Assembly: GCA_902521315.1 (NCBI GenBank)
Contig: CABYRH010000001.1
Location: 1 to 64,000, forward strand
DNA: 64,000 nucleotides
Source of the DNA: an uncultured Alphaproteobacteria bacterium
GTDB lineage: Bacteria; Pseudomonadota; Alphaproteobacteria; HIMB59; GCA-002718135
Direction of reading: 5' to 3'
This document shows, one piece after another, positions 10,972-30,619 of this stretch (the stretch's first letter is position 1; the number at the start of each line of letters is the position of its first letter). The notes under the pieces are model-generated. The model did no database searches, was not told the origin of the DNA, and saw nothing but the letters and a program-made list of their open reading frames with translations. Position numbers and translations under genes: made by a program.

Positions 10972-11028
10972 CAGATAAGTATGAAATTCATTTTTAAAAA
11001 TAAATAAATTTTATTATTAAATTTTCAT

Positions 11029-11079
11029 CGTTCATTTTGAATAATTCAAAACGGAAGTAAACGAAAGTTGAAGGAACGC
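11029..11079 (+). promoter_or_regulatory. Glutamine riboswitch (glnA RNA motif), copy 1
   Basis: This matches the L-glutamine aptamer layout: closing helix CGTTC (11029-11033) with GAACG (11074-11078), arm TTTTGAA/TTCAAAA, the conserved internal strand CGGAAGTA, a small AAC-GAAA-GTT hairpin, then GAAGGAACGC. It lies in the leader of the ATP-grasp operon. Transcription probably starts a few bases upstream. Recognised from the known consensus; no covariance search was run. Confidence 0.88.
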
Positions 11080-11095
11080 ATGCAAGTTATTAAAT

Positions 11096-11145
11096 CGTTC
11101 AATCTGTATTAACAGATCGGAAGTAGGCTAAAGCTGAAGGAACGC
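11096..11145 (+). promoter_or_regulatory. Glutamine riboswitch (glnA RNA motif), copy 2
   Basis: Second aptamer 16 bases after the first: CGTTC (11096-11100) pairs with GAACG (11140-11144). The arm ATCTGT/ACAGAT differs in sequence from copy 1 but keeps the pairing. The internal strand CGGAAGTAGG and GAAGGAACGC are conserved. Compensatory differences between the copies support real structure. The two in tandem could give a steeper response to glutamine. Confidence 0.88.
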
Positions 11146-11163
11146 GGATCTTATTATTAATTT

Positions 11164-26796: not shown

Positions 26797-28502
26797 TGAA
26801 AAAAATAAAGAGAGAAGCTTATGCTGATATGTATGGGCCAACAACTGGTGATAAAGTTAGACTTGCTGATACTGAATTATTTATTGAAGTGGAAAAAGAT
26901 TTAACAACTTATGGAGAAGAAGTAAAATTTGGTGGTGGAAAAGTTATTCGAGATGGAATGGGACAATCTCAAGTATCTCGTAAAGAAGGTGCTGTTGATA
27001 CAGTTATAACAAACGCTTTAATAGTAGATGTAAATGGAATTTATAAAGCTGATATTGGTCTTAAGGATGGATTAATTTATGAAATTGGTAAGGCTGGTAA
27101 TCCAGATACACAACCTAATGTAAATATTATTATTGGACCTGGAACAGAAATAATTGCTGGTGAAGGCAAAATTATAACAGCTGGTGGATTTGACAGTCAT
27201 ATACATTTTATTTGTCCTCAGCAAATAGATGATGCACTTCATTCAGGTATTACAACTATGTTGGGAGGTGGAACTGGTCCTGCACACGGCACTTTAGCGA
27301 CTACAGTTACACCTGGACCATGGCATATAGAAAAAATGATACAATCAGCTGAAGCATTTTCTATGAACTTAGCTTTTGCAGGAAAAGGAAATAGTTCTTT
27401 ACCTAAAGCTCTTGAAGAACAAGTAATAGCCGGTGCATCTTCACTAAAATTACATGAAGATTGGGGTACAACTCCCGCAGCGATAGATAATTGTTTAAAT
27501 GTAGCAGATGATCATGACATTCAAGTAATGATTCATACGGATACATTAAATGAAAGTGGATTTGTAGAAAATACAATTAAAGCAATTAATGGCAGAACTA
27601 TTCATGCTTTTCATACGGAAGGAGCTGGTGGAGGTCATGCGCCGGATATAATTAAAGTATGCGGAGAACAGTATGTTATTCCGTCATCTACAAATCCAAC
27701 AAGACCATACACAATTAATACAGTTGAAGAACATTTAGATATGTTAATGGTTTGTCATCACTTGGATAAATCAATACCTGAAGATGTTGCTTTTGCAGAA
27801 AGTCGAATTCGAAAAGAAACAATTGCTGCGGAAGATATACTCCATGACATGGGTGCTTTTTCAATTATTGCTTCTGATAGTCAAGCCATGGGTCGTGTTG
27901 GAGAGGTTATTATTAGAACATGGCAAACAGCACATAAAATGAAAGTTCAACGGGGACAATTAAAAGAAGAGCAGGGTAATAACGACAATGTAAGAGTTAA
28001 AAGATACATAGCTAAATATACAATTAATCCTGCAATAGCACATGGTATTTCTGATCATATTGGAAGTATCAAAAAAAATAAACGTGCTGATATTGTTATT
28101 TGGGACACTGCTTTCTTTGGCGTTAAACCTGAAATGGTATTACAAGGTGGAAGTATTGCTTGTGCACAAATGGGTGATCCAAATGCTTCTATTCCAACAC
28201 CTCAACCAGTATATTCTAGACCAATGTTTTCTTCTTTTGGAAAATCATTAGAAAAATCTACTGTTACTTTTGTAAGTAAAGTTTCTTTAGATAAAGATTC
28301 ATTTAAAAACTCTGGAGTAAGTAAATCTCTGTTACCTGTTAAAAATATAAGAAAAATTTCTAAAAAAAATATGATGTTAAATGATTATTGTCCGAAAATA
28401 GAAGTGAATCCAGAAACTTATGAAGTTTTAGCAGATGGTGAATTAATTACCTGTGAGCCAGCAGAAACACTACCTTTAGCTCAACGTTATTTTATGTATT
28501 AA
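26796..28502 (+). CDS. ureC: Urease alpha (catalytic) subunit
   Basis: 568 residues, full length. The amidohydrolase fold has all expected nickel-site residues: HIH in [11 protein letters not shown], the carbamylated Lys in [15 protein letters not shown], His in [12 protein letters not shown] and [13 protein letters not shown], and Asp in [14 protein letters not shown]. The mobile-flap Cys/His lies in MVCHHLD. It should be an active enzyme, given the complete accessory set. No urea transporter is seen in the window. Confidence 0.98.
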
Positions 28503-30192: not shown

Positions 30193-30450
30193 CTATTCTA
30201 CTTTTTGCAAAGAATACACTGTATCTGTACTATTAAATTTTGAATCAAATTCTTTTGATTTTGGGTCATCAAATAAAGCATAAAATTTTTCTTCATCAGT
30301 AACATTACACATAATCATTACATGGCCATCTTTCACAAAAGCCATATCAAATGCATCAGTATATTTTGCAATATCATCTTTAAAAAAATTATATAATTCC
30401 ATGTAATCTTCCTTGGTAAAAGATCCTTTGGATACAACACATAAATTCAT
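30193..30450 (-). CDS. Small soluble protein, unknown, with attenuator-like leader
   Basis: 85 residues, acidic, of the size and pattern of dimeric alpha/beta-barrel proteins (MNLCVVSKGSF ... GHVMIMCNVTDEEKFYALFD). The ribosome site AGGAGATAATT precedes ATG. An intrinsic terminator ends two bases before this ribosome site and a larger structured element lies upstream, suggesting regulated read-through. No family recognised. Confidence 0.6.
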   Translation of the reverse strand: MNLCVVSKGSFTKEDYMELYNFFKDDIAKYTDAFDMAFVKDGHVMIMCNVTDEEKFYALFDDPKSKEFDSKFNSTDTVYSLQKVE

Positions 30451-30461
30451 AATTATCTCCT

Positions 30462-30499
30462 AAAAAAAATATCCTCACCATTTTTCTTAATGGGAGGAT
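30462..30499 (-). terminator. Intrinsic terminator directly upstream of the 85-residue gene
   Basis: On the minus strand ATCCTC-CCATT, loop AAGAAA, AATGG-T-GAGGAT, then A and eight T. The T run ends two bases before the ribosome site of the gene ending at 30193. It works on the minus strand only. Confidence 0.85.
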
Positions 30500-30510
30500 A
30501 AATTTATACG

Positions 30511-30619
30511 TATCTCATTTTAGCTGCTTTTGAACCGCAATAGAGTCAAATCGTTCTAATGAATAGATAATACACAATTATTACAATTCAATGAATTCAA
30601 AGGCAGCTAATTAGAGATA
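30511..30619 (-). ncRNA. Candidate structured RNA (possible riboswitch or sRNA), unassigned
   Basis: The ends pair over a long distance: TATCTC (30511-30516) with GAGATA (30614-30619), a 3x3 internal loop, then 15 continuous pairs between 30520-30534 and 30596-30610 (one G-U). The 61-base interior can form small hairpins such as TAATA/TATTA and TAGA/TCTA, giving a multibranch shape. It starts 11 bases after the stop of one minus-strand gene and leads into a terminator before the next, the layout of a transcriptional riboswitch or of a terminated small RNA. It matches no RNA family I recognise. Confidence 0.55.

Follow-up and report, generated by a model that had tools for sequence, protein, structure and literature searches.

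A putative short-P1 SAM-II-class riboswitch ahead of a gene for an 85-residue protein in the HIMB59 order of Alphaproteobacteria

SAM-II aptamers that lead into a terminator have been described as OFF switches (PMC1273637), the Pelagibacter genes metX and bhmT are cited as being under transcriptional SAM-II control (PMC5069961), and the SAM-contacting residues of SAM-II and SAM-V are given (PMC6061858 and PMC11508383). The metA gene of Sinorhizobium meliloti has a SAM-II aptamer and a terminator that is not predicted to be SAM-responsive (PMC9373788), and SAM is reported to act there through the stability of the RNA or at a distance. Here we describe a leader RNA in a 64,000-nucleotide stretch of DNA from an uncultured HIMB59-order alphaproteobacterium (the window), which is likely to contain a short-P1 SAM-II-class riboswitch acting as a SAM-responsive transcriptional OFF switch for a gene of 85 amino acids. 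No prior description of this RNA was found among the matches listed from the literature on SAM-II riboswitches, Pelagibacter, HIMB59 and marine metagenomes, and it is unreported in the available portions of PMC5069961, PMC6061858, PMC2864571, PMC2704228, PMC11508383, PMC1273637 and PMC9373788.

The conserved leader RNA (30556-30462, minus strand) is approximately 95 nucleotides long and comprises an H-type pseudoknot followed by an intrinsic terminator. The computed terminator hairpin, UAUCCUCCCAUU-AAGAAA-AAUGGUGAGGAUA (30500-30470, minus strand; -14.7 kcal/mol), is followed by a U8 tract (30469-30462) and by the Shine-Dalgarno sequence GGAG (30460-30457) of the presumed target gene (30450-30193, ATG at 30450), all on the same strand, the tract and the GGAG being read from the sequence. 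A preliminary description of the locus had placed an intrinsic terminator two bases ahead of the ribosome site, which is confirmed in the sequence: the terminator ends 2 nt ahead of GGAG. The transcriptional riboswitch layout suggested there is likewise supported by the succession of conserved aptamer, intrinsic terminator and ribosome site. A conserved block, ATTGAATTGTAATAATTGTGTATTAT (30567-30592, minus strand), lies 10 nt before P1, and a similar block is present in a 13-locus alignment of relatives; its promoter role is putative because no consensus sigma-70 promoter is called there. The leader is flanked on the minus strand by a 134-aa gene (end 30631) on one side and the 85-aa gene on the other, and urease genes (ureC/E/F, assigned by eye) converge on the region from the opposite side. 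Elsewhere in the window, a tandem pair of glutamine riboswitch aptamers (RF01739; scores of 66 and 64 bits) was found at 11027-11148 (plus strand), and a 97.5-bit match to the 5' ureB sRNA (RF02514) at 26949-27228 (minus strand), antisense to the urease alpha-subunit gene, may merely reflect conserved coding sequence.

The leader very probably carries a SAM-II-class aptamer (30556-30510, minus strand), numbered here with G1 at 30556 and position i at 30557-i. P1 comprises four base pairs, GAAC (30556-30553, positions 1-4) with GUUC (30535-30532, positions 22-25), and L1 lies between its strands. The P2 pseudoknot and ligand pocket (30518-30550, minus strand) are formed by A16 U17 U18 G19 C20 (30541-30537) against the 3' strand G33 C34 U35 A36 A37 A38 A39 (30524-30518), with the pairs C20-G33, G19-C34, U18-A36, U17-A37 and U15-A39, and by a third strand, U7-U9 (30550-30548). 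P2a joins C12 U13 C14 (30545-30543) to G41 A42 G43 (30516-30514) through C12-G43, U13-A42 and C14-G41, and L3 is 7 nt long. The core GAUUUGACUCUAUUGC ... GCAGCUAAAA is the ligand pocket of SAM-II and SAM-V. All pocket positions are invariant in an alignment of 21 window-type sequences (A2) except G33, which is A in one. The SAM-contact positions named in the available parts of the structural papers and mapped by core alignment (U7-U9, A16, U17, U18, U35, A36 and A38) are all invariant, and SAM is the probable ligand.

The preliminary description had recognised no known family, which does not stand: the aptamer belongs to the SAM-II/SAM-V pseudoknot class, as a variant with a short P1 that Rfam release 15 leaves uncalled. 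An Rfam search, a match in which it had named as a refutation, returned nothing at the leader at the release 15 cut-offs; no RF00521 match was listed at the window, and RF01826 had none there. In a lax search, however, RF01726 (SAM-II long loops) gave an alignment along its whole length, scoring 14.8 bits where the cut-off is 44. This full-length alignment preceded the framing of the SAM-II idea. Because it falls below the gathering cut-off, the RNA is filed as a variant and not as a member of RF01726 or RF00521. Among 41 relatives, the Rfam cut-off was exceeded in 0 for RF01726, 1 for RF00521 and 0 for RF01826, and a lax search of 11 loci gave no SAM family among its matches. Lax matches to ncr1575, rli38, ncr1175, MIR396 and snoR28 were all far below cut-off and were rejected. 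These searches point to SAM-II riboswitches of marine alphaproteobacteria that go unrecognised by public RNA models.

A pattern fitted to both the window core and SAM-II was run over one genome per species (84,980 species). It returned 103 stretches: 45 of the window type, with a 35-nt core; 50 of a metX type, whose core is 41 nt long and which precedes metX in Pelagibacteraceae; and 8 others, which resemble coding sequence. The metX gene was named by NCBIfam for L076 and by the same N-terminus for the rest, one of which is cut by a contig end. Both types were known when the pattern was designed, so these counts indicate conservation and are not independent proof. In the 45 pattern-matched loci the aptamer (30510-30556) is nearly invariant.

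An independent test used R1, a covariance model built from 23 distinct Pelagibacteraceae metX SAM-II sequences with the window type excluded. Run unfiltered over 50 kb of the window, R1 ranked 30560-30512 (minus strand) first, at 19.4 bits (E 3.4e-4), with the runner-up at 10.7 bits. Over the 45 window-type loci it found 44 aptamers, at 11.1 to 20.3 bits, and was weak on some, scoring L043 at chance level (11.1 bits) and not finding L080. Two off-target matches in the 352 kb searched, of 16.1 (in L106) and 13.7 bits, mean that R1 discriminates, if not overwhelmingly. The window RNA was absent from the matches listed when R1 was run, with filtering, over the whole genome. R2, a mixed-type covariance model with the window RNA in its training set, gave a single match with an E-value of at most 0.01 in the source genome, the window RNA.

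In an early comparison 17 of 41 genomes matched, and 13 loci matching over most of the leader were aligned; their order is promoter-like block, 10-nt gap, GAACGAUUUGACUCUAUUGCGGUUCAAAAGCAGCUAAAAUGAGAUACGUAUAAAUU, terminator and gene. Across 150 genomes of the order, the 85-aa protein had a match in 44 genomes of the same genus. The RNA lies directly upstream of the gene in 43 of these, judged by positions, and in the other (G136) the gene is cut by the contig end. At the 45 window-type loci the gene is intact in 42 and broken in two (L026 and L027); in L035 the sequence examined stops inside it. In one locus (L253, genome G088) the leader RNA is kept beside ureG, the 85-aa gene is lost and the outer P1 pair is broken. 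Outside the genus, inspection by eye of the 300 nt upstream of 17 homologs (16 from sister-family genomes and one from another genus, G083) revealed no such RNA; an eighteenth homolog (G089) starts at a contig end and was left out of this reading. Viral contigs and phage records contained no relative.

Paired cells made up 98.8% of the total in the 21 window-type sequences, in keeping with the single stem P1 and pseudoknot P2 of the SAM-II class. The outer P1 pair is GC in 14, AU in 4, GU in 2 and other in 1, and in P2a the pairs C12-G43 and U13-A42 are invariant, C14-G41 being present in 20 of 21. A cross-type alignment of 22 sequences (window, metX and HIMB59-family types) had 97.7% of cells paired. 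Each of the inner three P1 pairs occurs as three standard pair types, paired in 22/22 with both sides changing between types, and U13-A42 of P2a is UA in 11, CG in 9 (C-G in the metX type) and other in 2. The covariation score of the three P1 pairs and one P2a pair was 0.44 versus 0.16 when shuffled (0 of 500 shuffles as high), and 0.15 at best when the structure was slid; since the variation is mostly between types, the covarying pairs reflect a small number of independent events. Some leaders (L036, L028 and L043) have a broken pair in P1 or P2.

In the proposed mechanism, SAM would bind the pocket between the third strand in L1 and the P2 helix, locking the pseudoknot. The locked pseudoknot would withdraw the 3' strand of the aptamer, AAUGAGAUA (about 30519-30511, minus strand), from the 5' arm of the terminator, allowing the terminator to form; the 85-aa gene would be OFF when SAM is plentiful and ON under sulfur or methionine shortage. 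The AAUGAGAUA strand resembles the terminator 3' arm AAUGGUGAGGAUA, with gaps. Its pairing with the terminator 5' arm has a computed energy of -1.2 kcal/mol (37 C) or -5.2 kcal/mol (18 C), compared with -14.7 for the terminator itself. Of the shuffled aptamers, 86% paired with this arm at least as well as the window aptamer. A search of any aptamer segment against either terminator arm gave no convincing antiterminator, the 5' arm performing no better than with shuffles. Because this pairing is weak, the switching step is the weak link of the model, and a SAM-independent terminator is its main rival; on balance we lean slightly towards SAM-dependent termination. Two other candidates were rejected. 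A micro-ORF, AUGAGAUACGUAUAA, seen by eye in the conserved linker, loses its ATG, gains a stop or changes residues in L052, L027, L056 and L115, and a pairing of CUAAAA with the UUUUAG of the U tract and Shine-Dalgarno sequence is not kept in a second clade (UUUGAAU).

The main rival, which we judge unlikely though a serious contender, holds that a SAM-II aptamer is followed by a terminator that is not ligand-switched: the terminator would cap expression and yield the ~95-nt leader as an sRNA, and SAM would influence how stable the RNA is or act at a distance. The lack in the window of any antiterminator better than chance is consistent with this, as is the S. meliloti metA precedent. Against it, a terminator lies between aptamer and Shine-Dalgarno sequence in all leaders (28 of 28 distinct leaders, -8.3 to -14.9 kcal/mol), and in sister SAM-II leaders antiterminators are clearly predicted, at -7.6 to -15.1 kcal/mol. 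Four metX leaders have a strand AGCUAAA that is complementary to UUUAGCU in the terminator (predicted pairing of -7.6 to -12.0 kcal/mol), and the antiterminators predicted for two same-genus leaders, L266 and L270, reach -15.1 and -8.2 kcal/mol.

That the SAM-II scaffold has been re-specialised for another ligand linked to the 85-aa protein would fit the shortened P1 and L3, the unrelated target gene and the absence of any other R2 match at E 0.01 in the genome; the invariance of the named SAM-contact residues makes this improbable. Still less probable is a conserved discrete sRNA or plain terminator whose likeness to SAM-II arose by chance. The sub-threshold Rfam score and the 16-bit off-target match of R1 in 352 kb would agree with chance, but the core matches position by position and P1 and P2a covary across types.

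The preliminary description had instead built the RNA around a 15-bp helix (30520-30534 / 30596-30610), an outer 6-bp helix (30511-30516 / 30614-30619) and a 61-base interior (30535-30595). All three are present in the letters; the two helices are not kept in relatives, and neither is the structure that encloses the interior. The covariation check that it proposed gave covarying pairs in P1 and P2a of the pseudoknot. The 15-bp helix is unbroken only when the plus strand is read, where it includes one G-U; on the minus strand, that of the gene, an A.C mismatch interrupts it. In the 13-locus alignment the sequence between 30556 and the gene shows almost no variation, whereas the region of the left arm (30596-30610, minus strand), a non-conserved complement, varies. 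For the right arm, the closest complementary 15-mer has 14 of 15 pairs in the window and at most 12 in the other 44 loci, and 14 pairs were reached in 2 of 2000 base shuffles of the upstream sequence of the window. The two helices pair the 3' half of the aptamer with sequence upstream of the conserved leader, and the left arm is probably outside the transcript because it lies upstream of the conserved promoter-like block. The long hairpin is a one-genome coincidence. A new RNA family with this 15 + 6 bp helix around a 61-base interior is hardly credible: both strands of the region do fold better than 200 of 200 shuffles (z -6.86 and -5.04, terminator included), but the left arm occurs in 1 of 45 loci, upstream of the promoter-like block, its helix is mismatched on the transcribed strand, and the SAM-II core explains the conserved part.

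For the 85-residue protein, to which the preliminary description had assigned no function, neither Pfam nor NCBIfam gave a match, and sequence comparison with the PDB turned up nothing convincing. AlphaFold2, from 17 close sequences, predicted a ferredoxin-like fold (pLDDT 96.6), two of the five models being poor (53.5 and 45.0). Foldseek and VIA related the model to dimeric alpha-beta barrels of the antibiotic biosynthesis monooxygenase-like (ABM-like) proteins, which resemble the prediction in fold across residues 1-85 (VIA Z up to 8.9) at an identity of at most 17% in the rows shown, without a family profile match. Designed ferredoxin folds tie with the ABM chains (Z 8-8.9), and the protein is described here as having a predicted ferredoxin-like / ABM-like dimeric alpha-beta barrel fold. 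The usual SAM-II target is a methionine or SAM gene, whereas the 85-aa gene has no family match and is not among the known methionine genes. Should the leader bind SAM, an unannotated ABM-like protein would be tied to sulfur or methyl metabolism. More tentatively, and more likely wrong than right, a minimal SAM-II aptamer of the HIMB59 order (~43 nt, 4-bp P1) may attenuate transcription in response to SAM with no classical antiterminator, controlling an ABM-like protein that has gone unrecognised in the methionine/SAM starvation response, with SAM-II-like aptamers controlling several further small proteins in the order.

Other SAM-II-like leaders were observed in the same order. A second short-P1 form occurs at L266:182-234 and L270:240-295, before 59-aa and 79-aa genes; the 79-aa protein shares IYKV..EDYI.QREKD.GLKNIFL with the 61-aa gene of the sister family. 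In that family, strong SAM-II-like aptamers precede genes of 51-61 aa (MPMKKLTLKEIRELG..., MAKQDIKIYKVKSKEDYIKQ...) in L255-L259, L262 and L268. SAM-V-like leaders (GCUAAAGGAG), with the aptamer strand running into the Shine-Dalgarno sequence, precede varied genes in L134, L135, L138-L140 and L265. The gene in L265 encodes an 81-aa CxxC protein, and the ORF after it resembles, by eye, a type III DNA methyltransferase. SAM-II-like aptamers also lie before a 3-mercaptopyruvate sulfurtransferase-like gene accompanied by an ORF that by eye is YedE-like (L263 and L269), before an OsmC-like gene (L133), and, across the order, before metY, homocysteine methyltransferase, rhodanese and OsmC genes.

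The window RNA shares with SAM-II (RF00521 SAM_alpha, RF01726 and the Pelagibacteraceae metX leader) an H-type pseudoknot, P2a, a terminator before the gene, the GAUUURAC..UAUUGC strand and the GCUAAAA strand. It differs in its P1 (4 bp versus 5 or more), its L3 (7 nt versus 12), a weak or absent antiterminator and an ABM-like protein as presumed target. With SAM-V (RF01826) it has the same pocket and pseudoknot core, as given in the available text of PMC6061858; unlike SAM-V it has no P3, and its Shine-Dalgarno sequence (GGAG, 30460-30457) lies outside P2a, approximately 54 nt downstream of the 3' strand at 30516-30514 and behind the terminator. The L266 and L270 leaders resemble it in their 4-bp P1 (CUCC/GGAG), the same 7-nt L3 (ACAAGCA) and a terminator, and differ in a stronger predicted antiterminator and other small genes downstream. 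SAM is a testable ligand for the leader of the 85-aa gene, and this leader would give biochemical work a SAM-II aptamer of very small size. The RNA is known in kind, as a variant of the SAM-II class, and new in detail, in its short-P1 form and its target gene.
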